Below are positions 25,426 to 64,000 of a stretch of 64,000 bases of DNA, piece after piece. The position numbers were made by a program, and so were the translations under genes. Numbering within the stretch: the first letter of the stretch is position 1; every line of letters begins with the position of its first letter. The notes beneath the pieces were generated by a model that made no database searches, was not told where the DNA came from, and saw nothing but the letters and a program-made list of their open reading frames with translations. Origin of the DNA: Aphrocallistes beatrix (Eukaryota > Porifera > Hexactinellida > Sceptrulophora > Aphrocallistidae); contig OY725492.1 in the NCBI GenBank assembly GCA_963281255.1, forward strand, positions 496,001 through 560,000. The letters run 5' to 3'.

Positions 25426-25487
25426 TGTTATTTGCTATCTAATTTAAAACAGGAAAAGTTTTAGTCGTTATGCTACTTAGTAGAAAC

Positions 25488-29872: not shown

Positions 29873-29904
29873 AGCTGATCAAGGGAAGCTAATCGTGTGA
29901 AAAA

Positions 29905-35419: not shown

Positions 35420-38400
35420 CTATATCATGGATAGTATAGAAGTATTTTGTTTACACTCTGAAACTAAACTAGTCCAAATTTTAACAGCTTCTGATACAGT
35501 AAAGTTTGTTGAAATTTTTTCATAATCAAATTCTTTTCTGTATGCACTGAAGATCGTCACTTCTTTTGAAAATTTAATCAAAGACTCTCGCAAACTAAAT
35601 AAAGATTAAGATCATGAAAAAATAAAACAAAACATTTGATAAGATGAGGATTAATTGAGCACTTTTTGTAAACATTTCTAGCAAATTCTTAACCTTATTT
35701 TCTACATAGGTATATCTTTGGGATAGATTATTGGCATTTTAAAACACCCGCATACAAATACCGTATAACAATTTTTAAAGATAATTATATTCAGTAAATC
35801 CGGGATAATAGCAAGAATATTGTGGAAATAGGAACATATCGCTACAACCACTGGCATTGTGGATTTAATAGTACTGTTGCGTATGATTTTGAGACCAGTC
35901 ATTAACTAGCTAATACACTACTGACCAAGACAGTATCGCATGTGTGCAAATTTTGAGCTATAAGGAACAAACGAACTAACCAACAACAAGCTTGTTTTAA
36001 TAGTAAAAGTTTTCAAAATAATCATTCATTTCCACGATAAAAATTAAATTGCTCAACACCAATTGTTGTATCACTATAAATATCAACATATAATTATCGT
36101 TATCAATCACCAAGTCGAAAATTAATAGCTGGAATAGCAATGCCACATTGTATTGAACACAAAACAATTTAGCAAAGGCAAGTTACAACGATAGATTAAT
36201 ATATATATCCCCAAGATTCAAACAAAGACAATGATACAATGGATAACTAGTTAATGACTGGTCTCAAAATCACACGGGTCTCAAAATCATACGCAACAGT
36301 ACTATATCAGTTTTGATTTTCTTATTTTTCCCTATGGTTGCTGGTGGACACTTCGGCCTGCATTTATCAATGATTGCTCTCCCCAATTTGATCAATGAAA
36401 ACATCTTTTTAATGGAATGTTGCTACATTCCAGCGTTGCTATGAAAACGCATTTTGGTGAGTTGGGCCATATCTTTGAAACTGTAATAACTAGGCATTCA
36501 AATTTAATCGCATTTGATTGATAAAATATTACTCTTATTGGGTGATAATATAATTTTGGAATTCTAAACTCAATAGTTTTAGAGTTATTGGACATTTTCC
36601 AAATGTCACCAATGTAATTAATTGTCCAATAACCCAAAATGACTTAATCGGAAATGAGTTTGCCATATAATTTTAAAGTAACAAATGTGTGGTCTATATC
36701 TTATATATTAAAACTCCAGGATTTTTTGTTTTTGTTTTTGTTTGTTTGTTTGTCCGAATTGATTGAAGAATTGGCAAGTCGTAGAGATACGAAAATTGGC
36801 ATGTAGGTGTCAAATGGTGAATCTAGGATTAAGTTCGAAGATCTAAGCGAAATGTTCACACCTCGACGAGATAGGTGACAAAATGTGCTGACCAATCAAA
36901 TTCGATTATTTTATAATGCAAATACATTGGAATAAAATAGTAGTGACTTATGCATACAATCAAAATAACTATTTGTGATTGAAATTCATTGGTTTATGTG
37001 AACCAATCAATTATCAGCCTTTTATAATGCCATTCACACGATTCTATTTCATATAAATGATTGAATACTGCTATTTTGAGTATATAATTTGATTGTTAAC
37101 AACAATTAAAGTGTGTTATATGCTACGATCAATCAATTCGATCATAAAATAACTTTTAACGACATGGACTGGAATTTTATTTAAGTATAATAATATTTAG
37201 CAATGTGAACTTTGTGTATTCAAATTGAGCTTACATTCAGATTAGTTGACTTAATACGAAGTAAATTATATTTATCACGAAACAATTTCTGCTACAGTTC
37301 TGATTTCATTAATGTAACCGTACACAAGTGACAATCCAGCTTACTTAGTATAAAACAAGAAAGCGACGTATTGTTTCTCTAATATCCGCAAGCGCCCACT
37401 GGGTAAATCTGCAGACACGCAGTGTCTGCAAGCCGCGCAGCGCAAGCAAGCGAAGCGCGCTTGTTTTTTATAATATGTTTATCAGTATTTCGAGAAGGGG
37501 GCGCTGGAAAACTTTGGCTTAAGTGGGCGGTAAGTGAAAAAAGTTGAGAAACACTGGTCTAAAAATAAAGTTTATTAGTATATTAGTTAACCAACCTGCA
37601 AGTAAAATCTACTTCTTTGTGTGATAAAATCAAGTTGAACAGCACAAAATCGTGTAATGTAACTAAAAATCCATCTAATTCCGTTGGGGTAAGATCTCCC
37701 ATCAATTCTTTAATGCCAGACTTCGGATTCTTCAAGTAGTTAGAAGATAAAGACGGAAATGGAGACTAGAATAATATGTTCATGTAAATAGTGTAGCTTT
37801 TATGAGAAATTTAATTAATAGAGTATCTTTAACCAAATTTTAGTCTCTATGTTACATACACATAAGTATTTTAGCAATTGAAATTACTGTTATAATTTCG
37901 AATACACCTTATAAAGCACTATTAGGTTTGAAATAATGAGTCATTTATAAAAGTAAGATAGTATCAATTTCGCGCAAAAATACAGACACATCTCTACATT
38001 ATAAAGGGATTCTACACACCAAATTAATAGAAATCAGAGTTTAAATGTATTTCCCTATAGGAGCTACTTTAAACCATCTTTGACAGCTTTAAATTATCTT
38101 TGTAGAATGTTTATTGATACATACCTGGCCAATATTGACAAATATCTTAGATTTGTGAATATTTAATTTGTGCCAGAGTGATGATAGATGTTTAAGACAG
38201 CAAACTTCATTGGCCTACAAACATTGTTAATAAGTTAGTATACAATGTTTAATATCAGGTAATTTGAGAACATCAATCGATCATTTACAACGAATAACGG
38301 AAGATTTTTAGTCGTCAGAGTCTGGATAATCCAACAACTTCTTCTCAGATATTAAATATCCACTTGGATAATATTTCTTCATGTCCTAAGTTCCACGCTC

Positions 38401-41400
38401 AAAATTACAACTGGAAATGAGTTAGCAAAACCCTCAGTCCAGTGTGGAGTACATTATTGAAACTTTGAAAAATTTCTCTTATAAATCGTTTGCAATCTTC
38501 ATAACTTAAATACTAAATACTCACCTTTTTGCTAATGAGATTCTTAGTTTTTGGATATTTGAGATATTCTACTAAGTAAGCTGCAATGCGTTCGTCTGGG
38601 TTCAGTTCGTCCTTAAGAGTTAATTTTACAACCATTTCAATCAGTGAAATTATGTCAGAGATCTCAGCTGGTTTATCCAATTCCTCTTTTATTGCATTCC
38701 AATCCATGTCCAGCAATTTGATCTAAATAAACAAAGAAGTAAACTCATCCTTACTAAGTATTAAAACATGATTAATGTGTATATATATACGTATGTGTAT
38801 ATAAAGCTGATTTTTGGCATGTGGGAGCCTTCGGGAGTCTTTTGTCCTATTTTATTGACGGGAATCGACGCAGAATAGCCCCAGATTTCATCTTAGCCAC
38901 ACCGAGATACGAGGTATGAGGGACTTGTTTTTTTTAGCTGGAGTAAAAGAAGTTTAACAAGTTCCTTGTACATAACAGTGATTTTTTAAAATTTTCAAAA
39001 TCAACCAATTTTACTTTTTTGAGTATTTACTTAAAAAAAGTTAGTAAAAAATATAAAATATTTAAAGATATCTAAAATGGCGATTATGACCTATATTGGT
39101 AACACAGGACTATTAACAAATAACGATCACGTACCTGCTTGATTTTTAAATTGATTTGGTGAAAGTATTCAATAATGGGAACTTGATCAGGAAATTCAGT
39201 GTCGAAATCTCCGAGGGATAAAACAGGTTTGGAAAAGATAAATCGTTGTCCCAGTTCATTCTGTATACCATTGAAGTCATAGTGAATAAGTGTTCCTTCT
39301 CCCATTCGAAAGGAGTATGTCGCATTGGATAGTATGACGTTGTCTAGCTGATGCTTGTATTTGATTATGTGGGAAGGAGAAACAAGTGATAGTGACACTC
39401 TTCTCTCAGAACTAAAGAAAAAGATATATTTCAATAATTAAATCAAGAATGCAGTTCAAACAATGTTAGCCAGAAGTGTCAAAAGCATACCTACATATCC
39501 TTACTATTAAAACTCGATTAATATATACATATATATATATATATATACACTGCCGGTCAAAAAGAATTGCTCAAAATGGGTTTACCCAAAGTTCGATTGA
39601 TTTTCACAATGATAGCTCGCCCCTTGTACCTTCTCTGGACTGTTGAATTGGAAATTTTTAGCGATTATTCTGATAATACTTCGGTTCTTATCTGAGTAGC
39701 AGTCTTAAATCAATCCTTTTTGCTTTTTCTGACTAATAAGCTGTCCTACCTTTTGATTGTGACACGAGGCCTACCTGGAATAGTGAGGTCTCTTACCGAG
39801 CAAGTCAGTCCATGTCTCCTTAGGATCTCACCTACGCTTTTTTGGCTATACCTAACCATTTTAGCTACTTCCCTCTGATTATGGTCGTTTACCGATAACA
39901 ATATCAGGTTTGCCAGATTTTCAAAGGAAATTCGGGGTTTCGAAGGCATTGAAAATTCGATAAATACTGAGAAATTGTAATAAAAAGTAGAAAAGTGAAA
40001 AAGGAAAATTATCCAGGTATAATGAATGGAATATCTGTATCAGAGTGCTACTTATCAAAATAAACAAAGCTGTATATGAATTCGCAAGAAAGAAACTATC
40101 TAGTGAGTCGAAACTATTTGACGTCTACTATACTATATACATTGATTTTGAGCAATTCTTTTTGACCGGCACTGTATATATATATATATATAATAACGAA
40201 TTGATTGAAGAAACTGTCAGGCCCAGAAAACTGATTTTTGGCATGTGGGAGTCTTTTGGCTATGGCTCCAGGAACTTCTGAGCTCAGACGAAAATGTCGA
40301 CTCATCATGGAATGATGACGTCATTATCACCTTTTATATACTTAGAAATTTCAGTTTTTCAACCATAACTCGCCATTTTAAGTGATAGAACGCTGAAATT
40401 TTAACAGAATGTGTATATTAATATACCTCACATGTTATAACTATCACAACTATCATAAAAAAATGATGACTCATCACTCTGTTATGACGTCATCATGACG
40501 CATCAAAATTTAAAAACTTTAAAAATTTTTTGATTTTTCGTACGATATCGATTATAACAGTAGGACAGACGTATTTAGGGATGTTATTTCTGTAATAATT
40601 AATTAATGTGACCCCAGGCGCCCGAAGGTCGCATCCAGCGGACACAGTGTCCGCCAGCCGCAGCACAATCAAGCGAAGCGCGCTTGTCAGTCATTAAGAT
40701 GATATATACATATAGCATCGTATAAATAGAGATGGGTTCGGTTAATTAACAGTTAAGTAAATTCTGCATTGATTAACCGATATGAGTTATTTTCTTAATA
40801 TCAAATATATAAATATGTTTGTATATGCTTTAAATAGGTGAAACGAATAATAATTCTGAAAAATGTAATCGTATAATGTATTTATTTTCAGTACTGGGAT
40901 ATATTATCGCCGATACATATATATTCGGAATCACTGAATCGCAACTACCAATTCTATATAATTATTTATATGCAAAGTAGATTGTGAATATTTTACCTGG
41001 ATGGTGCATCATAGGCTTTGGTGTATTCGCGAATGAATGAGTTGTGTATTTTGCCAAGCACTTTAATTAGGGACATCAGCAGACCTTCATCACCTCGACA
41101 GGATGTTCCAATCAAATGTCTGTTTTTTGTTGTTTTGTAATCAATTTCATAATTGATATATCTCGGAGGAAGATAATATTCAGAGTCATAAATATCCCTT
41201 CTAAATTCCTTCCAATCGATCATTAAGCTGGTAAATAGATCCTTGAATTCATCGTATAAGTTGCCATCCTCTAAAAATTGATACAATTTTTCGAAAAGAA
41301 ATGTAGATTATCAACATGAAACTATATAATATGTGTATTGTTTCATTGTACCATAGACTCCTTTAAATAAGGACTGTAGACATTCAATATCGGGTCCAGT

Positions 41401-44400
41401 GGTGCCTACTGGGGACGTAGTATATTCACATGCGTTTACAAATTTAACTGGGTTATTAGTTTACCATTTCATATTTTACTTGCAGCTCACTGTACTTCTC
41501 GCAATAATTTTTGTAAATATTATAGCATACAAATCGAGAATTTGCAGCCTACTTTGGTACGTAGGGATAACCTTAACAAGTAGATTTTAGAGACAATACC
41601 GAAAAATTCTGTAGATGTAGGAATTTAGGTCTGCATGCGAACGAAACCAGAACACTGAACAATCTATAGCTAGCACCAGTGGTATCAAACGCCAACTAGA
41701 AAGTGTAGTAGAATCACTGAAGCGAGTAGTTCTTGTGAAAAATACTCAAAATGATACATATATAGGATTTCATTGACATCGGCAAATTGGATCTATAAAA
41801 TGTGAAAGAATTTGATGACCAGCTCAAGGAACAAATGCGAAAATTGAGCTATCGGTTTCATGGCAGGGAGCATTGCAATAATGTGGAAAAACGAGAAGGC
41901 GTATAGTCACATAATACGAGAAGGATGATCTCCATTCAGGGATATGCTACAGCTCTGAAAAAGATGGGTTGTATTGGGCTGTATGTGTTGTCTTCAACAC
42001 TAGTGACTTTGCATTCGTACGCAAACCGTTTAAGGATTGGAGCAATGCCAAAAAGGCAGTGGGTAAGCACACACGCTCCAAGTCTCATCTCATAATCAAA
42101 TAATACGATACTCGCTCCGCTGGCATCCACTGTTTACTAAATTTCCAATTGACCGAGTAAATAATATTTTTCTAATGGGCCCGGCCCAGGCAGTGGCGTA
42201 GCCAGACCTCAAATTTGGGGGAACACTATAAACACTGGTATTTAATATTAGTTTGTCAATTTACTAGAAAAATGGAATCAGTCATTAGACCAGATGTTTT
42301 AAAAGCAAGAGAAAAATTAATCTCCCAAAAATTTGGCCAACTCAGCCTGAATCCTGACACCTATGATTGAGGCGGTGTATCATTTAGTTAAAAAATGAAT
42401 CGAAAGTTAGCATCAAATTATTCGAATGATTCCCTTTTGCGATATTATCAATAATACAACATAATATATAGTGGAATCTCAGAATTACGACCACCTTGGG
42501 ACTAAAAAGTATTCTAGAAATTACAGTTATCATACATGCCAACTTGAGCCATGACAAAAGCGGGACGTAGTGTTGAATTTCGCGGGACATGGTGACGCAA
42601 TATAAAAGTATTATACATAGAATACAAAAAGATGGACATAACGGGGAAATTTCATGTAATAGTGGGACACTGAGAAATAGCTCAATAGAAGAGTGAAAAA
42701 ATCGGGACGTCCCGCCAAAAAGGGACAGTATGCAGCAATTTTCCCCCGTTTTTCCAAGCAGTTATTATCCAGAGTCCAGACATTAGTAATTTGGCCTAAA
42801 TTCTATAGTAGAAATATTATTTCGTTCTAAAATAATGATTGTAATTCTGTATAGCGGGTGGTCAAAATCCTGAAAATAAATAATGTAGGAAAAGACGAAT
42901 TAAGCTTAACAAAGTTGTTCTAATATCGGGATGGTTGCTATCCTTAGGTGGTCGTTAACTTGGGTTCCACTATAACTAGATTTCTGCATGCTAATCAGCA
43001 CTATTTTTAACCAAACAATATATTTGTTATTCGCTACCTTTCTCAATTAATTGCTGGAATTCTCCAATGGTTAATTCAGATATTTCAACTTTGCTAGAAT
43101 ACTCCAAACTCTTCTGTATCAACTCTGTTCTGAGACGAACATAATCAGGTAAATATCTTGTAGCTTTCAACAGGGATTCTTCTTTTAAAAACTTTCTCAA
43201 GAGAGGATATTTTTTGGAAGGATTTTCAGCTTGACAATTAAAACGTTGCAAAAGATGTTCATATCCTATAATGTGTCGATGTCTCCATAAAATGGATTGA
43301 AAATCTATTTTTTCTTCTTTTTCATACAAATCTCTAGATTTAATTGAATAAGTAAATGTAAATTTATAAATATGAAACAAGTCAATTCGTGTACAACAAG
43401 AAACTCACAGTAGTAAGCCACTATCGCAGTTGTTGGAATTTGAAATAATCACCATCATTTTCTTACGGAGCTCTACATCGATATACTTCTCAAGCTTTAC
43501 GATATAGAATTCTTGAAAGGAAACCTCCCAACTTTGCCTTTTTGAAACATTTGTTAGTTCGTTCGAAGAGTCAGCTATTAATAATAGAAACAATAACACA
43601 GTATACTTTAAGAGTAATTAGAGAATAAAATCAAACATCAATTCAATTTGCAAATATTTTATAAATTAGCCAAACCCGAAAATTTTTTCAAATTTACATA
43701 TAGAGTTGCTTTCCACAAATAAATTCAAGTCATTTTCTTTTAATCTTTTGCAAGGACAAAAATCACAGCAACACAAACACTCATATTAGTAGTGTTTCCG
43801 ATTCATACTTGTTGTTTTGAGTATGGATTATTCCTTAGTATTAAACCTTAAGTATTGGGATTACCTAGTTAGAACCTGACTTGACTGAGATTTAGTCATT
43901 GGTATCCAATACTTATTCATATGCTAATTTCGAATCTTCGATAGAACTTCGTCAAAACAACTTACATGTACACGGTGACGATTTTTCATTGACAATAGCA
44001 TCAAATAGGAAGTGTACGAGGAGAACAGCCTCTTCGAACGTCTTGTTACTGATCGTGGCTACATCAATGATATCCTGCACAAGATGAAGGTAGAAGTATT
44101 GCGAGTATGTATTATGATGAATAGGTTCAACCAATTGCCCAACAGTGCCAGGTGAGGTAAAATGCTTCGTGTGTAGAGTCCATATAAATATGCTATGCAT
44201 TAGCACTCGGATGAGAGCAACTGAAATCGCCGTCAAATCTCTAGAAAAAAGTTCGAGTGATATCGATTATAACAGTAAGTCAGACGTATTTAGGGATGTT
44301 ATCAACCTTATAATTTAATCAATGTGAACCTAGTGCCCAAAGGATGCCTCTGGCAGACACAAAGTGTACGCCAACCGCGCAAGCGAGCGCGCTTGTACTA

Positions 44401-47400
44401 TATTAAAACGCTAGGATTTTTAGTTTTTTGTTCATCCGAATTGATTAAAGAATTGGTCGTACTATAGATATGAAAATTGCCATGTCACACGATGTAATCA
44501 TTGTACTGCATTACAACAGACTCATTGTAATGAATACTTCAAAGCAATAATATAGGGATATTTTATCTTAATTTTTAAGTGTATAGCAAAAAAGGTCAAA
44601 TGTATGTTTTCACACCTTTAGACGATTTTTGAAAAATATGCTAGGGACTGACTTTTACGGTTAATGTGGGATTTTAAGGGTGTAGATTTATAATATCATA
44701 TTTTCGGATCTTTGTGATAAAGTATCTGTTTACTTTTGCTTACAATAGTTATAAGTGGACAGATTCAGATCAACAGTTGAAAGCTAGTTATAAACTAGCT
44801 TTTACAACTGTTGACCTGTGGTTTTCGGGGCGTAGATTCCTAATATTGCCTTTTCGAATATATCTATTCTGAATTTATTGATATCCCGTGAGACTCTGCG
44901 AACACCAAGTATTCGCTAGCCGCGTTATGCAAGTGCGCAAAGCACACTTGTGAATTTAAAACTGATGTCATGTTCTTCATACTCTGATTATCTGACACTG
45001 ACCTTATGCTACTTGGTATCCTAGGTCTACCAAATGGATCTCCAAGAACATGTGGCCTATGGGATACTATTCTACTTGTATGCAAGCTTTCACTGTCTTT
45101 TGATCTCGTCGAGCTGTATATGTTTGATCCAGATGAAGTAAAGTTAGAAATCTATAAAAAAGAATTGTATCAATCCAGATTGCTTCAATATTTTCATTTT
45201 TTGTGCAGCTCCTATGAGATGGCCTTATAGTGTGGACTGCTACTTTCGTACTTAGGTATGTATATGTAAGTTATATGAATATTTCTCTGTGTATATCCAA
45301 TTTTCGCACTTATACTTGATGGGTTACAAATATTTGCATATTTCCATATCTCTTTTAATTGCTGCACTATCAGTATGTCGGTCGACATTTTTCGACAATA
45401 TTTGAAGTCTTATAAGATTCTAGTTATTCTTGAAAATAGTAACCTATCAATGATTTCATCTGAAATAAAATAATATTCGCAATTAATAGTACGCATAATA
45501 GAATGTTTGTAAGATCCCAAAGTTATGAGATCTTAAATCTGTAGGATATTTACCTTACAAATATCCCCCAGTTTCGATTAATGAAATGAGTTAAAACGAT
45601 GTTATATTATTAATAGTGTATTTCATCTGAAAAATCTAAAAGTTCTTGTTTCATATTTGCAAAAACATTATTTGTGTATAGTATAAATTCTATCCGTCAA
45701 TTAGTTTCCAGAGTTATCGAATAAAAATTCCCATTTAAAGGTATTTCTGTATTAAAAAATGAAACGCGAAAATTGGATACTATTTCAACCATACATAATA
45801 TAGATTATTATATTCAAAATATCTCTACCATCTAAAAATAATACCTCTTCGATTGCAGGAAAAAAATTATTTTTAAGAGATGAAGGATTGTAATGAATTT
45901 GTGTGAGAGGTTGCAAAAAATTTGAATGCTCGGTGTACTGTAGAAGAATCCCAACATGACACAATACCCCCGCAATAAAGACAGTGTTCAGGTGTGTATC
46001 TTCAGATATTGACATCTCCTCCATATTGAATAGTTTATTATCCAGAATGTCAGCTGCCAAAGATTGCAAATTGATGGGTTCTTTAGGAAGACTATTAGTG
46101 AGTTGTGTTAGTTCTTTCTAAATGAGATAAACATTGTTATTTCAGATCAAATGAATTCCATTTTTAATAAAAAAATCCGGCATAGCAACCACTCCAGTAC
46201 TATGACAAAATATTGGCTGCTCATAGACTTTGATTATAAATATTCAGATATATGACTAATACGAAATTTTCACTATTTTTTAGCTCTCAAAATAGTCGGT
46301 AGGTTCCACAGATTTTAGCAAGTACAAAATTACATACCGTGCATATACAAATTTGAGATTTAAATAAGTAATGAATCAGATGTCTTGCTTTCTAACTAAC
46401 CTTTAATTCATCTGTTGTGTTCTTTTTATGCTTCTCTTTCTGTGTTAACCCATTTTTATTTCTGATTCGATTAGAATTACATTTGGTAAATATCGAAAAA
46501 ATAATATTTCTGGTCATTGCCTTTTCACCAATCTAAGTATGACACAATATTAAAGTTAATATAAGTATAACATTTATATCGTGATCGGATCGAAGATCCT
46601 TTTATAAGTTAGGATCGGAAACTGGATCTAGATCCTTTTTTTGAGGATCGACTAATGCCCTACTTTTATAGACCACCCCAAATGCACGTGTATGTTCAAA
46701 GGGATCTCGGTGATCTATTTCCTGGAAGTAGATCGACAAGTGAACAAAAAATACTTCTGAGCATGAGTTCGCTCAAAATGTCATGGGAATATCCAAATAT
46801 GCCAAAATCAGTTTTCTAATCTTCATAGTCAATTGGAAATATATATATATATATAAATTCCTATGTGATAAATATTAATGATCTTTCAAACGACTACTAA
46901 CTTATAGATAGTACATTACCTTCGACTTTTGATCTTTTTTACGAATTTGCAATGCTTTCAGATATGATGGATCGATTCCATAAAATAGATCAAGATAGGT
47001 ACCCTGTAGAAAAAACATTAATTCACTCCACTTATATATATTTTAGGAGCTTGAATGAATCCGAAATTCGAATAGGATTTGAAATTTATTTCTCATCAGT
47101 GGTTTCTAGATGATTTTAAAAAATAAACTTTTCATTTTTAAATGAAAAAAATCGGATAAAAATACCTTTGATCCATCTCCAGATGTAGTAGATACTTTCG
47201 GGTAAAAATACTCCATTTTTGGATCGTTCTGATAGTTCAACAATGCTCCATATCCAACATGAAAATATAGTGTTTTTAATAAAAATGTTTGAATTGTATT
47301 CAAAATGTTAGGAATTTTAGTCGTTTGTATAAGGCTCAAAAATTCATTGATTAATAAACTTAAATTCGAGACATTCACATATTTTTGATGATTTTCATTA

Positions 47401-50400
47401 CTCCTGAATGATAACCTTTGACTGTTGATGTACTTGTCGTACAAAAAGTAATCAACATTCCATTTAACAATCCAATATATTGCAAACTTGATTATTGCAA
47501 CAGATTTGATCAATTCATATGTTATATCCATAGATGAAAATGGTTTTAAAAGGTCAGTATTCTTCAGCTGTGATAAAACATAATTAATTCTGGTGTCGTT
47601 TTCTGATACTTTACACTGATAATGATGATAATCCTATAAAACATCATAGTAAAAGTATCATATTTCTTGATTTTGTCTAATTACAGTTAAGACAAACTAC
47701 TAAGTACAAAAATTCCAGGGTAGTTGGAAATAGAGCGACTTAATTTCCCACTTTTCATTAGCATAATGACAACAGCTGCTCCATATGAAATTTCAACGGC
47801 CGAAAATTCCAAAATTATAATACTATATATGACTAGAGGAAACTCAAATGGTTGAGAGGATAGAATCATTTAGCTATATGTATAAATACCTTATTAGTTC
47901 TATCATATAGTTGTACTATTGCCAATCATTTTATTCTAGATACACGACTGAATATCTACATTTAAGAATCAAACCTCCCAACTCTGTAGAACAATAAATA
48001 TAAGACTTTCTGCTTGGATTTCTTCTTTTAAATCGAGACATATTATTGCAATACGATTTTCAATCTGATTGTTTATGCTTTCACTCCTAAGAAAAGCGAA
48101 TAAAATATTGAAATGTTAATAAAATATTCAAGTACGATCCCCTCACAGGACCACACATTCCACAAGACAAGTTATTCTTATCCTTAAGGCTATCTTGTTA
48201 CGTTTATACTTTATTCCTCATATAAAAATAGTACCTATATATTGAAACATATTTTGAGTGATAATGGTAATTTTTGAAGTATTCTAAAGCAATTAAGAAA
48301 TATATAATTAAATTACCAGCTATGTCTGAGTAGATGTTGTAAGAGCATACAGCGAAGTGATGAAGAGGGTTCAATCTTGTTGAACAAATAAAGCTTATAC
48401 ATTGGCCCTTTCCTCATATTAAATGTTTGATCGTTGAATATAAATTCAATAAAGTAATGTAAAAGATCTTCATGAAGTTCGGTAGCAGATGTAAATGTAA
48501 TCTTCAATAAGATTTGAAGAAAAAACTGTACAGCTTGATTTTGAAATTCAAACTCAAATAAGCATCCAAGACAGCTGAATTTGTAAAGATTTAATGCAGT
48601 TTAAAAACGGTGTGGAGGTCCGAACTGAAAAATTTCTAAAAAATCCCACTTTCGAACGGGGTGAGAAAATTTGTAGTTTGCACCAAAACCCTTACCAACA
48701 CCCTCTGAAGGCTTTTGACCTAAATGCCTACTTTGGTTCAGTAAGTTTTAATTTAAATTTTTACTAAATTCACAACCTCGAATCATTGGCCTTGTTTGAG
48801 TTATGCTACACCAAAATTTGAATTCAGCCAAGTGGGAATTTTAGGTCACAAAATCCTCCAAAGGATGGATGCTTGGAGTGGTTTTTGGTTCCAAGTTACA
48901 AATTTCAATTTCATTCCCATCCGAAAGTGGGATTTTTTAATTTTTTTCTGACTTCTAACCCGAAGTCATCTGACTTCTAACCCGTGATTTAATTTTAAAT
49001 ATAAATTTATATATTATAAACCCTACTAGAAATCATTGGGTTCTAATCCCAGTACATATGTAAAGCTGTCTCCATTTTATAAAATACAAAATATGATGTA
49101 GTATACTAATTACCTGGAACCTTCTTTCGATGTTTCACATTTGTGATTTAATTCTTCCAATTTTAATGACCTAATAAAGTTACAATTCATTATTCGACTG
49201 AAATATGTGCATTTTATGATTTGGTGTGAATAGTTTGCTTGGTTGTTTGAATTGATCAATAATAATTTGAAAAGAACAAACAAATTAAAAACAGTTGAAA
49301 AGAACTAACAAATTCAAAACAAATTTAACGACTAAGTTTTAACGACAGAAAAATCGAGATTTAGAATTATGCAAGCGCGGCTAGCGAACACTTTGTGTCC
49401 ATAGAATCGACCTGCGGGCGATTAATATTGGCCACTTTCATCCATCCATGAATTTATAGGTTAAATTCAAAATAAAAGAAAGGTGATGACATCAACATCC
49501 ATGATGAGCAAGCATTGTCGACCAAATAGTAAAATAATAATTCAGAAAATGTTATTATGTATGTGTACGTCCATTTTTGTGATTGTAGCATTTATTTATG
49601 TTTACAGAATCCAAGCAAACAATCAACTTACAAAATTCCTTTGTACATGGAGTTGATGATAGCTAAGATGGACTTGATACTTTCAGAGGAATGAAAATTC
49701 ACATCTTGAGGAGAAATCTGTGAAACAAAAAATGTGACATACTAGTAAATTTGTATGCATATCATATTCAAATTATTAAAATGGATTTAGCAAACTCATT
49801 TCTGGTTAAGTCATTTTGGGCGGAGGAAGCATGAAAATACAGGGTCAATCTATAAATATAATCGACATGGCATTAAAAATACGTATAATTAAACCTGAAG
49901 TTTACCTGAAGTTATCTACCTATAATTTGGACCATATGACGAAACACAGAAACTGCAAGGTACAGAGAGCTGATTTTTGGCATGTTGGAATCTTTTGGCT
50001 ATGGCTCTACTAAGTTCTGACCTCAAACGAAAATGTCGAAATATTACAGAATTATGACGTCATTTTCACCTTTTTTATTTTGAGAAAGTTTTTCGACTTA
50101 TAAATCAACCATTTTAGGTGATAGAATGCTAAAATTTTAATAGAATAGTATATTCATATATTTCAAATAGATACAACCGTAATCAAAAAATTATTCACCA
50201 CTCGGTGATGACGTCATCATTACTCATCAAAAATTGATAAATTTAATGATTTTTGAGTGATATCGACTACAAGCGCGCTTCGCCTGCTTGCGTTACGCGG
50301 CGGGCGGACACTATATCCACCAGAGACGCACTTTGGTCGCCTGGGGTCACATTCAGGCTTTCATCCAGGCGTACTGGGCGCGCCTAGAGGCGCGTATTTG

Positions 50401-53400
50401 ATCCCATGGATCATAATTAGGCGTATGATTTAGGCGCGCGGCATACGCCTACTTAGGCGAATGGCATAAAACATATATAAAAATGCAGAGTCTAGGCGCG
50501 TAGAAAAATGGTGGCGCCCATTTAGGCGTATGACTTCGGAAAGCTGGATGAAACCCTGGTCACATTGATTAATTATAAGGGAGATAGCATCTCTAAATAC
50601 GTCTGTCCTACGATTATAATCGATATCGCACGAAAAATCACCAAATTTGTAAAATTTTTGAAGCGTAATGATGACGTCATAACAGAGTGATGAGTCATCA
50701 TTTTTTGATGATAGTTACATCATATGTAAGATATATTAATATACACATTCTATTAAAATTTCAACTTTCTATCACCTAAAATGACTGAGTAATGGTCGAA
50801 AAACTGAATTTTCTAATTATAAAAAGGTGACAATGACGTCATAATTCCGTGATGAGCCAGGATTTTCGTCTGAGCTCAGAACTTAGTGGAGCCATAGCCA
50901 AAAGACTCTCACATGCCAAAAATCAGCTTTCTGCGGCAGTTTCTTCAATCAATTCGTTACATATATATATATACAAATATTCATTTGTTGCCGATTAGCT
51001 GGTTGTTTATTCTCATTCCCTAGTTATCTTCCCTAGTTAGCGTTAGAATAGTACCTTTCTTAAAACGAATACATTTAAATCTACAGGATGTTAACATTCA
51101 ATGATGAGTAAATATTTGAAATCTTTTTCGAATAAATAGGAAGTTATTATACATCTCCTTCAACAACCTTTGATATATCATTGAAGGCTGTCTCAAAGAT
51201 AGATATTGACTTAATCTGGATATTAGTTTTCGAACTTATCTCTTTAAATGCGCTCTCAGTTAGAAAATGAGTTATAAATAGATGTACGCACTGAATGCGC
51301 TCCCATTTGTTCCTACATAGGGAGGAGTAAAATAAATAAATAAATAAATAATTATATATATATATTAGGTTTATTCCTTAGTCCTTACAATCTATACCTT
51401 TTGAGTTATGGCTCCAAAATTCCATTTGTTGTTTCCATAGCAACTGAGGAATGTATAGACATTCCAATTAAGATTTTCAGATTTTTTTTATTAAGAATGC
51501 CTAGCATTTATATGGCTTTTATGGCTTCAGTGCCATATAAAATGACTGGGAGACATCCGCGATATCGGGGACACTGTGTCCCCACTGGGCATTCTACGGT
51601 TAAGGCCTTCTTATTGTTGTCCTTTCAAAAAATCAAGCATTAGAAATGCAGATGACACTGTTTAAAATGAGCTAGAATAGCAGTATTTTCGCTCTAAAAA
51701 GTGCCTATTGTGCAATCACATGATGATATATCAACTTTTTAAATTTACGCACACTGTTATGATGTTATACATGATAATAATACATTTCAAAGGTCTGTCG
51801 TATACAATTTTGATTTATCGACCAAATTAAACTTTTAACTGTGTTAATACTGGCCTTCTATTTTTCAGGCCTTCTCGGCGAGATACACGGCTGTGTATTA
51901 AACTGACCATGGACTGCATAATTTTAATAGTCGAATATACGCACCTGAGAAGATCTATCTCTTTTGAAAAACTTTTGAATAAAGTCCAATTCTCTTCAAT
52001 CAAGCAGCTGTAGCGTGTAAATCTTTCTATAAACCATTTTGGATCATTCAGTTGCAATTTTGAAATGTCTTCCCAGCAAGTATCAACCAAATCCTTGAAA
52101 ATTTCGAAGTCGATGTTTTGCAACTTAGAATAATTGCTTGGTATCGATAGGCATTTATCAGACAGTATAGGGTGACCTTTAGGAAATTTAAATCCATTAT
52201 TAAAGGCCTCATTAATGAAGAAAACTCTCTCTTTCACGATAGAATATGCTATGTGGATACTGGGTATATTATAGTCTGGGAGCTTTTGAGAGAAATCTTC
52301 TGGAACAATCAGATCTTGGTTGTTTGTTCCTCTGTGCTTGGAAGCAGCAACGGACATGAGAATAAATAAGCACTATAAAATAGAAATGTAAAGTTTTTTG
52401 ATACAATTATGTTAAGAGTAAATCATTTTTTGGACATTTTTTATTCAGCAATAAAATAAACAAATTTAGTTATAAATTACTCGGTATTGCTGCATTTCTT
52501 CTTTACTCTCCATCATATGAAGTAATAGGAAGTCCCTAAGATAGTCAGCATTCAGGGAAAATGTCTTTTTACTTTCCTTCTGCACAAAAGACATCATCTT
52601 GCCGATTGGTGATTGATGGAAGTTATCCTCAAATATCTTACATGTCTCCTTTGTTCCTAAAATAAATTCAATGAATTTAGAATGAAATAAAGACAAAACT
52701 AGGTGTAGATAGTCATTTTAACTGCATTACAGATGGTATTTTACTATGTACATTCTATATTACACATCGCTCGAAAGTGCACGAGGATTTTCGATTGACT
52801 AGGAAGAAAGTCACCGCCCTTGAATGTGCCCTATCCTAAACCTCATAGAAAGTATGGAAAGCATTCCACAATATTGTTTTCAGTGGACATTTTAGGTGTA
52901 ATAAAAGACCTAAAAGGGGGCTGACAAGAAAAATTTAAAATCTACGTTTATCGTAGAAATTATCATGCCATAAATTATTAGGGGGGAAATCCTCTCACTG
53001 AAGGAATGGGAGTGTATTTCCACATTAAGTTGGTGTGACACAACATAAAGTATTGCAGTACCAGCAAAAATGTGGAAGCACACTCTAACCTCGTTTGTGA
53101 GGGATTTCCTCCAATTTGCGTTTAAATTCATATTTCATTGTCCTACACAGTACTAAATAATTTGCTCATTGGAAAAGAATTATAGTAGTACACGCTAGTT
53201 TAGTTAATTCGTAAGCTTATATTTTGATACTTACCAATGTTTGTATTCATCTCATTAAAAAGACGATCAACTTGTTGATATATTAATGTAAAGAATGGAA
53301 ATTGATTCTTTACTAGCAAACACTTTTTGGAATTATTTTGAAATTTTAGCGAAATGTTGTTAATTAAAGATTTCCAGTGTAATATATTTTCATCATGATA

Positions 53401-56400
53401 AATATGTTCCCAAGCAAGCTTAGTACACTGATGCTTCGGAAAAATCAGATTTAAATTATTATTTGAATCAATGATGGATAATATATCACTAAACAATGGC
53501 ACAATAAGATCATCGATATGTAAAGAGAGAGCCTTCGTGAAAGTAGTCGAGACTGTAGAATAATCGGATTCTAAAGCTGCAATACGAGACCACTCCTTGC
53601 TGTATCTTAAAGTAGAACTCCAGTTCAATAATAGGTTAGAAACGATCTTGCATGTTAAATCAGCAATTTCTAGAAAAAATATGTGTTGTGAAAATACTTT
53701 CAAGATGTGTACGTACCCCGGCAGGCATGAGACAAAAAAGCTTAAGCCCTTTTTAGGCTTAAAAGGATTTAAGTACTTTCGGACTTTAAGTCCTAACTTG
53801 GACTTTTTAAAAGTCCTTTAAGTCCTTTTAAGCCCTTTTAAGCCCAAACAAATCTGATAAAAGTTAAGAGAGAAAGTAGTGAATACCTGTAAACTGAGGG
53901 TTTGCCAAAAGATTAACAATATAATTTATTCTATCTGCATTTCTACCGTGCAATTCACAAACAGCCTTTTGTATACATCTGATCAATCTCCTCTTTTGAA
54001 ATCTATATTTGTCTGTACTACGTATTGATTCCACCTAGAAGAAATTTGGAATTATTTTTGACTCGAGTGATCATTTTAACTATAATACACCAAAATGTTT
54101 TAAACAAATCTCTCGCTGTTCGCGAAAGTTAAATGAAAACCGCGAATAGTCGAGGGAAGAGATTTCGAACGGTAGGGTTGCCTTGCGTAATTTCATATGC
54201 TGACTCAGTATTGTTATTCACCATTTAATACTTTTATTAAATTGATTATTATTCTAGGTTCAAATCAAGAGAAAATGTCATAATTCGTAAAAAATATTGT
54301 CGTCTGAGATGGGTGCTGATGATATGGTCGACCGTAATCACTCTACTAACCAAGGTTTGAAAGATAGTGACTGGATGAAACTTACCGTCTTAGAATGCTG
54401 ATAATTAAATACTTCAACAACAGAATTATTGGTAAGTTCATCGAATGGAGGTAACAAATTATGAGAAGAGTCTTGAAGTTCATCGATATAAACACTATCC
54501 CAATCTTCCCCACAGAAACTTGACTGCTTTGGAAGACCCTGATGAAATAACAATCGTGTGATGAAAACAAAATGATAATTCGAGTTTAGTTTCGCACTCA
54601 TTTCGTTAATTATTTCCATCACTTTGTATTTAGCACATGACACGATATCAAAGTTGGCTTGACCGTTTTCGCATTGAATAATGATAATTCCCTTTGATTC
54701 GTGATTAGCTATGATTTGAATGTCTTCTTTGATTGCTAAAATGAATTCCCGTTCTGATGTAAACTGAGATAAATTTCGGAAAGTAATCTTGACTTCACTA
54801 TATAATAATACATTTAGCTTAGTTCTCAATTTCTCAATATCAAATTCCGTCAAGAGAGTAGAATACGTTGTAATATAGGATAAATATGGAGTTGATTGGT
54901 TATGATACTCTCGAGTATTAGGCAATTCTTCCAAGTAGCTCGCAAGATCAAATAATTTGAGAGTACAGTAATCTTCGTAAATTTTATCAGCCTCTTCGGT
55001 TAACTGACTTTCGCGTATTCGAAGAATTGAATCTGGAGAAGCAATCTTCAATAACTCCGATTTGCAATAATCTAATATTTTCCCCATACTTTCCTTTTCC
55101 TTTCCCTTTAAGCCTAAAATTCTTATAGAAGAGTAAACCATAAATGGTAGAGTGTCATCCTGAGTCCCAATAAAACAATTTTCTCGCGTATATTTATATG
55201 GTGATTCATTACTGTGAATAGTAACGAAATTCTGAACCCATTTGGACAAAGTATCAATGATGTTCTTCACAATAATGTCCTCTTCAAGTATGGTAGAAAA
55301 TGTTAAGTTATGTTTCTCTAGTCTGTTTATCAAAGGAGGCGGAAATCTGTCAAAAACAGTGTTTTTATCTGCAATAATTATCAATCTGAAGTCAGGATGT
55401 ACTGGGCATTTAATCCGCTGCGAACCAATTCCGATATCCACCCAACTCTTGCCTAGAATATCAACATAGAAGAGATTGAGAAGTTCGTAAAGACTCTCAT
55501 AAACATTGGACAAATTAGTCAATACTACGACTTTTCCGGTTTCCATGAATACTTTGATACGATTAATTGTGTGGCAAATGCCGAAGTATTCTTGATCGAG
55601 AGGAAAACTACTCCCAAATATCACTTTATCATCGTTTTTTAAGATTTCTGAATGAAATAAAATATCTAAAGCAACGTAATTTTCTGTCAATAGAAGAAGA
55701 TACCTTGACCTCTCCATTCTCTGCTTCTCTCTCTCTTCTTTCGATTTGCCAAGTAAACTTGATCTAATTAGAGATAAAATATCTGAATGAGGACCAATTT
55801 CAGTACATTCTAGATCGAGTGGAAAATCCTCAAAGATATCGATAACATTGATCCCGGTAATTCCCCCAAAGTTCCTCAATATCGCATGATTAAAAATCCT
55901 AGAGTTAAAGGTTTCATATTCTTTACAGAGTTGGTTCAGCATTTTAATAAGGTGATACAAGTCTCGAAGTCCAAAGTAATCTTTTGACCCTTTTATTTGT
56001 TGCTTTTCAATCAATTTCAAATATCCTTTAGCTAGGTTTGGGATGTTAGGGATAAGTTTACGCAAAGAATTGATATCTTCTTTTTCACTAGACGTAATTA
56101 TTGATTGACCGGTATCCACAATATCTTCAAGTGTAGGATCTTCAAGCCGTAACATAATGCCCCGATTCATTTTAGCTGGATCAAGAGCCCAGTTGGACAA
56201 ACCTATGAAAGTAGTGTTTGGTCTTTGTCCATTTGTTTCGTTAATGCCATCTTCAAGGAGAGGATGAAGTATTTTGAGAGGTAAACTAGGAGAATCTTCA
56301 GCTAAACCGACTTCATCCAATACAACACAAGCAACACAGTCAGCGGCACTCTCCTCTTGAATGGTCTGACAGCTTTCGAATAAGTTTAGAATTTCTTTGG

Positions 56401-59400
56401 ATGTGGTCAATTGGCTGCATTGGTAAGATCGCATATAGACCTGTGTGTATTGTGCTATTTTATCTCCATCCAAGTTAAAGTCTCCATTCAGTGAGTGGCT
56501 AATGATATGTTTTGCTAACGATTTGGAAGTTCCTGGCTTACCAATAATGAATAATGGAATTTTCAACTGAATACAAACAAACATCATAAACAAATTCTCT
56601 TTCAATGCTTTATTTTTCGCAATGTGCTCTCCGATTGTCATTAAACTCACAAGAACGTCCTGGAATGCTTTTATCTCTTTGAAAATTAGGCTAGCATTTG
56701 TAATTTTATCCAGAGGATAATCGAATTTACTTGAAATATCTTTATCAAAATCCTTTCTATTGACAAGTTTAGCTCTATAACACACTGCTATGGAGAGTAT
56801 AAGACTTCGTGTATCCAAATTTAGTTCAGTATCAATGCTTGCCATAAACTTTAGTTTATTATCAATCTTAGGTAAAAGCTCTTGAAACCATAGCATAACT
56901 TTCAATGTTCGCTCAACATCTCTCAAACTAACGAAAGAACATTCATCATCTTTATCTCTCATGAACATTTGAGCAGATAATAGGACTGTCGCAATGGCCT
57001 TGTTCAAAAGACTTGAACTTTTATCGTGGGGTAAGTGAGTGTCAACAATTCTCAGAATATAAGAACGCTCACTTTCAGGATCCAGTGTTCCAAAGTCCCA
57101 AACTAATGGTAATAGACTATCTGGTAATGGAAGAACTCGGTACACAAGTTCTCGTAGTGGAATGCTTCCAAAATGTTCCCTAACCTTATCACTTGAATTG
57201 AACATTCCTAGACCAGCAGAGGTTAGCTTACTCAACATTGCTTCAGTGTGTTTTCTATAAGGATTGCATGCAGCTACGAACTGCAACCGTAAATCATTCG
57301 GAATTCTTTCTCCATCAATTCTTCTGTCGCAAAGAATCTCTTTAATCAAGCCGATCGAGTAGCTAGTGTTCACTTCATCAAAGAAAAGGATTGTATCAAT
57401 ATTTTTGCAAGCATTCTCTTTTGCTAATTTTAAGGCCTTTTGATAATAGTCCATTATATCAGTTTTGTAAATTTCACCATGGATTTTGAAAGTGATGACA
57501 TTCTTGACGTTACGACCTTTGTCCTGAAACTGACACATAAATTTGATTAACCTTGTTTTTCCGCAGCCTGTTTCACCCATTAAGATGACGGGAATGTTGC
57601 TACGAAAACGCATTTGGATGGCAAACATCTTTTTAAGATTGTCTATAGTAAGCACATAATGAGGATCAGGATCAATGGGAGATTGTATTCCTAGTACGTT
57701 AGCCAAAACTTCGATCATTTTCAATCGGTCCCATTTATTGCAATCTTCTCCTAGATCTACTCTGTTGTTTTCAAGAACATTGTAGAGTGGTTTGCTAATT
57801 ACATTTTTCGCTTTTTGTGGATTCGAATCAAATACGTTTAATTGGTTTAAGTTTTTATCAATAGATATTCCAAAAAATGTCATTGATTGCATATCTTCAT
57901 TGAAAAAGATGTAAGGATTTTTCTTTTGGTCCCATTTTCTTTCAGAATCGATGCTATAGCCTAAAAGTTCATTTGATGATATAGAAGACTGTAACGAAAT
58001 CCTGAGGGAAGGAGTAGTGAAATCTAACGTCATTAGTATCAAACAATCAATTACAAACTTTTTGAATCCACGCCAGCTGTTATCCAAATCAACTGATTGG
58101 CAATATATATTTTTCTCACAAGCTATTAATTGGTGATTCATGAAAGTGAGAAAGTGTTTAAGTTCACTCCAAGATGGAGTTTCAAGTTTTAAATATTCTA
58201 ATAGAAGTTTTAAATCAATTTTTTGACTATTTTTCGGATCAAATTTATATTTATCCATATTAGAGCCTGATTTTAACTTAGAGAGATATTCATGGGTTCT
58301 TCTGTAAATATCAGATTCAGATTCAAGCTGATCAAATTTTGTTTGGCACTCTAATAATATTGTTTTTTCCTCAACATTGATTGCTTCATTTGGTGATAAG
58401 CAATACCAGGTAGGAAATATATGTAGAAAATCAACCAATTCGGGTGACCGTGACTTTAAATTGATTTCGATCATGTAATAATTGTTTTTACTACAGCGCC
58501 AAATATTTCCTGAATAATCGCAGAGAGTTCTTGTGACGAGAAGCTTGAATAAAAAGGGTATTAGTAGCTTATCAGAATCCGAGATGAGGTCAAAATGATA
58601 TATTCTTCCATAATCACTCGCTGATAGCTGAGACTTGATGCAAGTTTGAACTACTTTATCTTCAAATCCCTCACCTTCGTGGATGGTAATGGTAGTATAT
58701 AATGAAGGAATCTCTGGAGATCGAAAAAATGATTTCAATTTTTCCACTTGCCTTAATACGGTAAGAGACTTCCCATTGCCAGATGATTTAGAAGTTACAA
58801 TTCTGATATAACAAGTATCTGGATCGACCTGCCAAGCTTGTTTTTTAGAGGTTGTTTCATCAGAAGATTGGGAAATTATCTTAAAAACTAGTTTTTTATC
58901 AATGTGTTTATCTGACGGACTGATTCTTGTATACCTTGCAAAAGCAGTTGCCATATATGAAGATGCTTTGCATTCATCAGAACATATAAAAACTAAACGA
59001 TAATTTGAGTTTTGACTCAATGTATATACATATTTTTTGAATAGTGATACGCTGTCAACAGCGACTTCATATCTCAATTTTTCAATGAAAGCAATGCAAA
59101 AAATATTTGAAAATCGATATTTCAAAGCTCGTCTCAAAAAGATTTCAACCTCTTCCAAAGCTGTCTCTTCAGAGCATAGCAATATCTCATGGGTTTGAGG
59201 CAATTCAAAATCTGAATTAGATAGTATGTAAATGGATAGTAGACACTTTAAAATATTTGAACTTGTGACAAATAGTAGGTTGGGTTCTGCTTCTTTAAAT
59301 GTGACTGGGAAATCTCTTCTTGCTTGATGCTTTGAATAACTCGATAATTTTTCGAAAATCTTCTCCAAAGTATCTAGAGAATTTAGATTCGCTTTTGTTT

Positions 59401-62400
59401 CCTTCTCATAATTTTTCCTTAAGTCTGATTTTGCACCTTCATCTGAGTCTAAAGATGTTATTTCTTCTTGAAAAGGGGCATCAAATGTATTAGTATCATT
59501 TTGCTCGAATTTTGAATTATCACCAAAGGGATTGTCAATGGGAGTCAGAATAGGATCTAGTAAATCCTCTTCAGGTATTTGACGTATTAAGGGCGATTCA
59601 AGAGAAATATTTGAGGAAATATTCATGAGTGAATTAGTGATAGAACGAGAACCTTCATTCAATCGTTTAATAACTGTTTTCACATCTTCAATAGTCAAAT
59701 TTTCTTTAATCAAAGATAGTAAATGGAAGAACTCTTGGTCTAAATCTATATTTTTGAAATATGAGTCTAAACTCATCTGTATTGCTATTATTTGAGAAGA
59801 AGTGAAATAATTCAGATAGTAATGTTTATCACGTGCTTTTTCAAGGTTATTTATCCAACTATCATACTCTTTTTCAAGAAAGGCAGTATCTCCTTCAATC
59901 ATTTGAGTTGAGTGGCAACCGTAGGACAAGTTTTCCTTTGTTTTTCTGAAGAAGACATTGCCTGATAGGTACAATTTCAATACTATTTCAGAAAATTCCA
60001 TTAAAACCCTTAAAATATTTTGAAATTGTGTCCCTATTTTGTCATCATGTCTCTCAGAAGTAATTAGTACAACTTCACTCTGCATCTCTTTGAGTTCGTG
60101 TAAGTAGTAGAATTTTGACTCACCAACCTGGATAGACATTACATCTTCAACATTCTTGAAATCTTCCTCCAAATTTACGATAAAGACTCCCTTAGATAAT
60201 ATCTCTTTAATCTTGGAAATTATATTACCACCAATTGAAGTGTGGTTAAGGAGCAACTGCTTCCAAAAGTCAAAATAAATCTCTTTCGCACAGTCTTCAC
60301 TCATCCCTAAAATGGTGCATTTATCTTGTTCGCTCGAATTAATATTGTTGTGCACGGCATTGAGCATTAGCAAAAAGCTCTCTTGGTCCGTTTCATTTCG
60401 ACGTTCAAAAATAAAAGGTGCGAATATCCTACAGACATCTTTGAAGCAAGTAATGCGATTAACTTCAAAAGTAGAATTGTTACTCTGATTCAGTGCTAAG
60501 TCAGTGAAATTATCCAATTGGCGTTGATTTTTCAGATTTTCGATTATCCAATGGAAGAGATTAATACACACTATCATTTGCCTCAGAATTTCAAAATACA
60601 ATTCGTCACAATGGGACAATTTAGTCCCAATTTTAACCATTTCTTCTGAAACATCTTTTAATATTTTCCCCTCTAAATTTAATTCATTTATAAACTTGAT
60701 TGTACTGAAATCGCCGTTCATACTATAAGCATCTTTTACCTCGAGAATATTCTCAGCAATGCTCCGTACTTGCACTAACTTAAAATAATGCTTGATTCTT
60801 GTTAAGATTTCAGATCTATCTTCCTCTTTATCATAATCATTCGAAGCCCCAGTATTTATTCCTCTTAGAAGGTTGCTGATTTCAGATCCCATTTTATCTG
60901 AATCTCTTCTGTAAATTCCAAAATGGTTATCAATGTCTGATAATAGAATATTCATAAAGAGAAGGTCGCGAATTATCTGAGACACAAATAGAGATGATTC
61001 GTACCAAACTTTGTCTAGAATAATTTTCAATTCAAAGAATTCGAATTGATTGTCCTTAAAATATTCTTGAAATGTATTTGAAAATGTAGTCATGAAAAAT
61101 TGAGATTGACGGAGATAAGGTAAAGATTCTAACATTAGGACAAATTCCTCATTATTAAGGAAATCTTTATGTTTTGAATGAGGTAAAATGACTGAATTAT
61201 GACATAGCGAAGAGATAGACATATCTTCAAATTCAATTGTTAGAACATCAGAGAGAATTTGAGAATTCATCTGTGTTTTGGTGTAATCTAACAATTTCTT
61301 TAAATCGTACATCAGTGCACGATAATGTAAAAAGTTATGCAAATTTTTGTCAATGCAAAAGAGGAATTCGTCAAAAGTTGCTAGGTCAGTGAATTCATGA
61401 TGACTTTTTGAGACCAATTGTAATAATGAAAAACAATTATCATTATGTTTAATAGCAAGTTTGAAATATTTTGTTTTGATAAATTGATCTTGCAACGATG
61501 TAGCAAGAGATTTAACAGTATGAATAACTGATTCAATGAGACTGGCTGCATCATGATGACAATATTTTTCGAAATGTTTTGGTTGGCAATAGTTGATGAG
61601 CTTAGGCCACCATGTAGTAGATAGAATGTGCTTTATTGGATCAGATTTTATCGGTTTTGAAATGCATTCCAAGAGCTTGGCAAACACTTCTACAATCATG
61701 TTAAAATGTTCAATTGGAACTTCAACTAAGCATCTGACACACAGTTCATACTCTTGTTCAGGATTTTGAGTTTGATCCAATATCGAAATCACTTCATTGC
61801 AGAGAGAATAATTCAAACTATCTGAATGACTGACTTGACTGTAAGTAATACTACATATGTCAACCAAAGTAGTTAGAATGCTTCTTAAGTCCTGTACTTC
61901 TAATTTTCTGATAAACAACTGATCAACAGCGAAGAGAAACTTGTATGGTTGAGGGAATTGTATTTTGTATAAGAAATCCCAAATATTTGACACCTCTTTC
62001 ACAAAATCAGATTTGTAATTTGAATCTAGTACATCCGGATTTAAGCATCCTCTAAGAATGTTAAGAAGAGCAGACTCAGATTTTAGGTGAAATATCTTCC
62101 CACAAGCCAAGTGAAAAGATTCCTCTGATAACAATTGTGGGCACTTTTCATCAAATAAACTCAATAATTTAGCTAAGATTCGCAGAATAAGTTTGGATTC
62201 TTCCAGGTGGATACAGTGTTGTGTTTGGTCCTCGTCATTAATCACAGCAAGCATTTTGAATATTACGTCACATGCTTGACAAATATCTTCCTCATTCATG
62301 CCCAGGTGTTCAATTTGTTCAGATTTATCTAAAAACGTTATAAATACAGATTCACGAAGTTTGTTATCTTGTTCTATGAAGCATGGCCATTTCTTAACAC

Positions 62401-63859: not shown

Positions 63860-64000
63860 TTCACACCTAATTAATTGAAATATCTGCAAGGTTAAAGCTA
63901 AAGTTTATGAGAACAGTAAATTACATATTAATCTTTAATAGGAAAAAGATGACAGAATGGGTTGCGTATTAACTAAATCTACTCGTAATTTATATGTACG

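Follow-up and report, generated by a model that had tools for sequence, protein, structure and literature searches.

A candidate RNF213 pseudo-ligase lineage lacking the RZ finger and the RING core in Aphrocallistes beatrix

Can a gene for RNF213, a giant protein of immune type, lose the zinc fingers of its ubiquitin ligase (E3) part and still be kept as an ATP-driven motor? This question is raised by a predicted gene on the minus strand of a 64,000-nucleotide stretch of Aphrocallistes beatrix DNA, the window of this study, which is positions 496,001-560,000 of contig OY725492.1 (here C6) in a 100.5-Mb genome of 28 contigs. Its 23 GT-AG exons (Table 1) can be joined without a change of phase from an ATG at 63859 to a TAG at 35420-35422, giving a frame of 4,757 codons whose single stop is that terminal TAG. 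A sequence-only reading of the same DNA had counted 23 exons, which stands, over 4,745 codons, which does not, and had described an RNF213-like protein without RING or RZ finger. The explanation that we favor, and regard as reasonably probable, is that this gene is one of 15 loci of an RNF213 pseudo-ligase lineage, which would have shed its RZ finger and the RING's core and kept an ATP-driven motor with an E3-shaped shell.

The loss is clearest at the RZ finger. The RZ-bearing copies of this genome split the finger over two exons, of which the first ends in WYxCxNGHxYxI or a variant of it and the second opens with the catalytic cysteine and then C-x2-C. In the window gene the finger is gone on both sides of one intron, between exon 46117-45845 (e13), which stops short of the WYxCPNGH half, and exon 45151-45003 (e14), which in the window's clade begins with a Ser/Arg/Lys-rich linker ahead of H-x-LGDPF or a near form. 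The flanks given by the sequence-only reading hold at the spliced junction, with e13 ending FPAIEE and the e14 linker running into HVLGDPFGRP. The first RZ-flanking exon ends two residues past FPAI in the C6 copies and extends about 11-27 residues past it, with no cysteine, in the C1 copies that were resolved; the e14 linker diverges fastest, with 34% identity between the window and L021 as against 79% for e13 and 77% for e15. None of the six zinc-binding or catalytic RZ residues, taken from passages of PMC11549300 (RZ features also from passages of PMC12075652), is present in any of the 10 resolved loci (the window, L019-L024, L027, L031 and L032). All six are present in L033 and L034 at a computed junction, and in L035 and L038 as read from frames without a junction.

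Profiles of the two RZ halves agree with this. They reach 17.7-60.6 bits in six RZ-bearing loci, and 17.7-44.0 bits in L034, L036 and L037, which lay outside profile building, as against at most 8.8 bits, the level of background, in the window and its 14 sister loci. A genome search with the Pfam RZ model, in which all 20 first-look candidates were scored, gave 16 places at an expectation value (E) up to 0.001, none of them in C6 0.5-1.2 Mb or C1 8.08-8.47 Mb. The earlier claim that no RZ lies between 45845 and 45151 is thus confirmed both by residues (0 of 6) and by profiles, and loss of RZ ligase chemistry in the subfamily is well supported. From work on mammalian RNF213, a protein that has lost the RZ would have no catalytic cysteine and no known route of ubiquitin transfer. 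The genome's strongest RZ match, L001 (C7:4962256-4962390), lies within a 2,031-codon frame that we take, tentatively, to be a ZNFX1-type gene.

The RING is missing as well. Two copies on C16, L033 and L034, carry a RING exon of the form CIKC...CLH..C..C...CPDC, and the E3 part of L033 aligns to RNF213 at E 2e-45 over two segments, with both RING and RZ inside the aligned sequence. In L033 the RING exon sits between the equivalent of the ISPQDVNFH exon and the post-RING exon (in L034 the preceding exon was not located), and alignment of these C16 exons places the RING slot of the window gene at 49631-48575, between exons 6b and 8. The sequence-only reading was wrong to put it in the repeat-filled intron 51908-49717, and its choice of the ISPQDVNFH exon (49717) as the post-RING segment is not borne out, the corresponding exon being 48574-48317. 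The slot holds a short exon 7 that shares flanking exons and phase with the RING exon of L033 and looks like an internally shrunken RING exon. It was located in 14 of the 15 subfamily loci (L026 being the exception), measures 18-31 residues wherever its two ends are resolved, and contains a cysteine in 14/14 of these, with a histidine two residues upstream in 12/14. Exon 7 can be skipped in phase, and there is no RING with or without it.

Spliced junctions, patterns and profiles all indicate that the window gene has no C3HC4 RING, as had been proposed from the sequence alone. A genome search with the C16 exon found an RNF213-type RING exon only in the two C16 copies, with five weaker matches outside the subfamily, and a six-frame search with a RING profile scored no higher than 9.0 bits in the window and 8.9 bits in any sister locus, as against 89.9 for L033 (in the profile) and 77.6 for L034 (not in it). 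When the best 150 of 163 candidates from a Pfam zf-C3HC4 genome search were scored, the C16 RNF213 RING was not among the matches listed and scores below the Pfam cut-offs; because Pfam is blind to it, we judged absence with the C16 RING exon and the local profile. Loose Cys/His pattern matches in L022, L026, L032 and the window near 22468 fall outside located exons and were treated as chance; the last came from the loosest RING pattern and lies outside the RNF213-like gene.

The window gene has many relatives. A search with exon 5 found 14 sister loci (4 on C6 and 10 on C1) at 38-90% identity, followed by the two C16 copies at 24%; among its 91 matches, the other rows listed match mainly the query's tail past the end of the exon, which is repeat-like. 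A search with the motor recovered the same 15 loci and, at 50%, the C16 copies; RNF213-like loci on C19, C4 and C6 are more distant, and those on C15 matched weakly. The last exon was found solely at the 15 subfamily loci (15 of 15 candidates at E up to 5). In a tree of 18 loci, the 13 finger-less copies split from 5 RZ-bearing ones with an ultrafast bootstrap of 100; 3 of the 21 loci are missing from it, L026 and L038 having given no hits and L025 (78 residues) having been dropped. Automatic joining of the E3 part was used only for L023 (789 amino acids, 0 stops) and for the exon 7/8 joint of L027, since it lost the frame in L019-L022, L024 and L027 and left one unjoined step in L031 and L032. 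A second RNF213 gene with both fingers in the same genome, for which the sequence-only reading had suggested looking, exists twice, as L033 and L034 on C16, so that the finger loss belongs to a paralogous lineage. The ten finger-less copies on C1 all lie on the plus strand, 25-55 kb apart, at C1:8096686-8454092 (exon 5 positions). Two further loci, L036 (C4:1465000-1474999) and L037 (C6:3212000-3221999), have no RING exon and keep the RZ; in both, the general-base histidine of the RZ is changed to tyrosine, and L036 also has a zinc-ligand histidine changed to aspartate.

The motor, by comparison with the fingers, is intact. An open frame of 3,188 codons (54338-63904, minus strand) encodes an RNF213-type AAA core; residues 1509-3166 match RNF213 (6tax) with >1,000 bits, and a 1,111-residue piece matches RNF213 chains at E about 4e-234. 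Walker motifs are intact in AAA3 (GETGCGKT / ILFFDEVN) and in AAA4 (GKPGTSKS / VVLDEVGLAEDSP), so the gene has the dynein-like AAA core with AAA3 and AAA4 motifs that characterizes RNF213, and the E3 shell that also does so is recognized through homology to the C16 exons, which match RNF213. Since RING and RZ are both missing, we do not class the window gene as an RNF213 ligase, though it is homologous to one. Among the 14 sister loci, Walker A and B of AAA4 are intact in all, and the Walker A letters of AAA3 are kept in 13, the change being at C6:0.60 Mb; at C6:1.17 Mb (L049) the AAA3 Walker A is kept but read in a different frame, a frame shift separating it from Walker B, and two C1 copies have an altered Walker B acid. 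In the C-terminal region, where RNF213 has its docking domain for the ubiquitin-conjugating enzyme (E2), the exons are in phase and give weak matches (E 0.001 and 0.008) to an approximate human fragment, and e20-e22 are probably the C-terminal domain. By-eye alignment suggests that the E2-docking positions described for mouse RNF213 in passages of PMC12075652 are changed both at 35423-35594 of the window and in a C16 copy (L078).

Selection on the finger-less copies was measured as the ratio of nonsynonymous to synonymous substitution (dN/dS, by Nei-Gojobori on aligned codons). For the shell it is 0.21-0.24 between the window and L020-L022 (477-662 codons) and 0.28-0.36 among L020-L022; for the motor it is 0.13-0.17 between the window and the four C6 copies (210-323 codons), synonymous sites being saturated between the window and the C1 copies. 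Motor and shell thus appear constrained across the deeper splits, and the latest history of the window gene is less clear. The earlier view that motor and E3 shell are retained is upheld by the intact motor and by dN/dS <1 for motor and shell across the subfamily since the fingers were lost.

How such a protein might act is suggested by published passages on mammalian RNF213, from which we infer a scaffold role. Deletion of the RZ, or mutation of Cys4462, abolishes RNF213 activity in passages of PMC12075652; the RZ is needed and the RING dispensable for activity (passages of PMC12075652 and PMC11549300), and the RING has a partial effect on vacuole ubiquitylation in the passages that treat it. 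RZ-dead RNF213 still coats Toxoplasma vacuoles, and ATPase activity is required for the coats on all three pathogens (passages of PMC11549300). In passages of PMC12075652, ATP binding activates the E3, coupling motor and RZ ligase, and ATP-induced self-association of RNF213 in cells is mentioned. We therefore suggest that the window protein may be a scaffold driven by ATP and devoid of RZ ligase activity. Loss of the RZ finger and of the RING exon's core would most simply have happened a single time, ahead of the subfamily's expansion, and the finger-less copies would since have been retained as giant AAA motors, each with a shell of E3 shape. The protein would act through ATP-driven recruitment and self-assembly, as a non-ubiquitylating scaffold or recognition layer beside complete RNF213. 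A bolder form, in which some fifteen genes encode a family of ligase-free, ATP-driven recognition motors that self-assemble on their targets beside the RING- and RZ-bearing ligases, is at present somewhat doubtful.

Several results weigh against the scaffold explanation. Five of the 15 RZ junctions are unresolved: in L025, L026, L028 and L029, e13 and e14 were not found in the fetched DNA, and L030 has a stop in e13 and an e14 that was not located. Several RING slots among the sister loci are likewise unresolved, and a C-x(1,2)-C pair stands where exons 7 and 8 join, or immediately past that point, in 11 of the 13 loci scored (the top-scoring junctions of L027 and L031 do not have it, and in L027 it appears only when a longer core is taken), so that, together with the conserved exon 7 cysteine, a leftover metal site or a new chemistry is possible there. 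The E3 part of the window, searched directly as a single sequence against the PDB, gave no match at E up to 1, and its tie to RNF213 therefore passes through the C16 copies. The copy closest to the window (C6:0.60 Mb; L046, C6:601980-602260, and C6:601830-605165; 90%) looks decayed, with two stops in the motor match and GET changed to RET in the AAA3 Walker A. Shell dN/dS rises to 0.55 between the window and its nearest copy, L019, which leaves constraint on the window's own recent branch unclear, and is 0.31-0.65 among the C1 copies; six other motor pairs span 0.12-0.52 (one C6 pair at 0.12, five C1 pairs at 0.23-0.52). Finally, ATP-dependent oligomerization was not seen in the structural and biochemical work of PMC12075652 itself, as given in passages of that paper.

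The alternative that survives best, and that we nonetheless hold to be unlikely, is a dominant-negative decoy, which would co-assemble with complete C16 RNF213 and tune or dilute its ubiquitin output, or else bait pathogen inhibitors. Retention of the shell and last exons without the active finger, the presence of RING- and RZ-bearing partners in the same genome, and the self-association mentioned above would all fit such a role. Identities to the C16 copies of 50% in the motor and about 29% in the shell make mixed assemblies less likely, however, and 15 loci exceed the need of a simple regulator.

Decay is the next possibility, and seems improbable to us: the loci would be an array of dying RNF213 duplicates, and their open frames recent leftovers. 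Stops, frameshifts or short frames do occur in the copies at C6:0.60, C6:1.17, C1:8.27 and C1:8.36 Mb, and both the e13 stop of L030 and the shell value between the window and its closest copy point the same way. Yet in 10 of the 15 loci the motor frame is longer than 2,900 codons and its main match is free of stops (at one of the ten, C1:8.158 Mb, the short piece that follows contains one; in the remaining five the frame is interrupted by stops, broken or shorter), the window gene joins over its full length, dN/dS is low over the deeper C6 split, and the AAA4 motifs are intact in every sister locus.

A new ligase chemistry, in which a cysteine of the shrunken RING exon or another shell cysteine would accept ubiquitin from an E2 on the C-terminal domain, is in our view quite improbable. 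The exon 7 cysteine at all located loci and the last exon at all 15 are what would be expected of it. Shell cysteines in general, those of the RING slot included, are kept at 6/11 between the window and L023, and we have given the RING-slot remnant modest weight for that reason; the length of exon 7 is also variable. The E2-docking residues look changed by eye, and as this is equally so in a finger-bearing C16 copy it says little. That the RING and RZ exons were dropped by the assembly or lie elsewhere, the case named by the sequence-only reading as refuting it, is extremely improbable, for although a single assembly is the basis and five junctions could not be read, 10 resolved loci share the same loss with in-phase splice junctions and six-frame profiles of the window give no RING or RZ candidate.

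For the exon model, conserved cores were located and in-phase GT-AG pairs then picked by a simple splice score. Exon 5 had been thought to end at QSM, near which a donor scores 15.2 as against 23.9 at 51945, and the exon at 51312-51168 was absent from the earlier account of the gene. The N-terminus and AAA core form a single frame of ~3,185 codons (54351-63904), similarly long in many sister copies and in both C16 copies. Translations of the intronic stretches 49900-51000 and 40100-40700 match up to 11 of 20 loci and are probably interspersed repeats. Other long minus-strand frames in the window lie at 979-2097, 12394-13365, 21778-25434 and 27977-29878, and comprise an ion channel piece, a protein kinase, an immunoglobulin/fibronectin-III protein (1,218 codons) and ankyrin repeats.

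Table 1. Predicted exons of the RNF213-like gene, in window coordinates; e13 follows exon 11, and the name e12 is unused.
Feature	Coordinates	Strand	Content and basis
exon 1	54351..63904	-	N-terminal C-x4-C-x14-C-x2-C motif and AAA core in one open frame, first ATG 63859; 63904 is the upstream end of the open frame; translation
exon 2	53887..54017	-	GT-AG, in phase
exon 3	53235..53669	-	GT-AG; 31% identity to C16 copies
exon 4	52481..52698	-	homology to sister loci/C16 search and splice joining
exon 5 (E3 part)	51945..52372	-	ends EIDLL|R at 51945; 14 sister loci found with exon 5
exon 6 (NKWERIQCVHLFITHFL...)	51168..51312	-	GT-AG in phase; matched in 14/14 sister loci
exon 6b (ISPQDVNFHSSESIKSIL...)	49632..49717	-	placed before RING slot; equivalent to ISPQDVNFH exon
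short exon 7 (SLKLEELNHKCETSKEGS)	49114..49170	-	57 nt, in RING slot; aligned to RING start
exon 8 (post-RING)	48317..48574	-	aligns to C16 post-RING exon, itself aligned to RNF213 after RING
exon 9	47975..48086	-	homology search and in-phase splice joining
exon 10 (E3 shell)	47166..47633	-	homology search and in-phase splice joining
exon 11	46920..47003	-	in-phase splice joining
e13 (E3 shell)	45845..46117	-	ends FPAIEE just before place of RZ half 1; 39% identity to C16 exon
e14	45003..45151	-	Ser/Arg-rich linker replaces RZ half 2, then HVLGDPFGRP
e15 (E3 shell)	43966..44240	-	homology search and in-phase splice joining
e16	43409..43574	-	in-phase splice joining
e17	43038..43333	-	in-phase splice joining
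e18	40997..41270	-	GT-AG in phase
e19	39135..39411	-	48% identity to C16 exon, E 7e-18
e20 (probable start of C-terminal domain)	38525..38722	-	in-phase splice joining
e21 (probable C-terminal domain)	38125..38214	-	weak match to approximate human C-terminal fragment, E 0.008
e22 (probable C-terminal domain)	37596..37765	-	weak match to approximate human C-terminal fragment, E 0.001; alignment crosses stop upstream of exon
e23, last exon with TAG	35420..35594	-	splice joining; matched in 15/15 subfamily loci

If the scaffold explanation is correct, the motor and ligase functions of RNF213 have been naturally separated in an animal-type lineage. Natural ligase-less paralogs in which motor and shell are kept would point to a motor function that is independent and under selection, and would supply ready-made separation-of-function proteins. 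Expansion of RNF213 copy number is reported for salmon and symbiotic bivalves in passages of PMC12234341 and PMC9993606, and no description of RNF213 paralogs without both fingers was found in the open-access titles and starts of abstracts listed, a scope outside which most subscription papers and all preprints lie.

Compared with mammalian RNF213 (mysterin; PDB 6tax, 7oik, 8s24 and 9g08), the window gene shares the AAA core and its AAA3 and AAA4 motifs, has E3 shell exons whose homology runs by way of the C16 copies, and probably has the C-terminal exons; it differs in having no RING and no RZ, and so no zinc ligands, cysteine nucleophile or general base, and in carrying its AAA core in one long exon. 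Around the RING and RZ slots, L033 on C16 agrees with the window gene in exon order and phase, and both C16 copies share the motor at 50% identity; unlike the window gene they have a RING exon and a complete RZ. Of the two, L033 alone was joined across the entire E3 part. L036 and L037 resemble the window gene in having lost the RING and kept the shell, and differ from it in retaining an altered RZ and in joining exon 6b directly to exon 8 with nothing between, where the window gene has exon 7.

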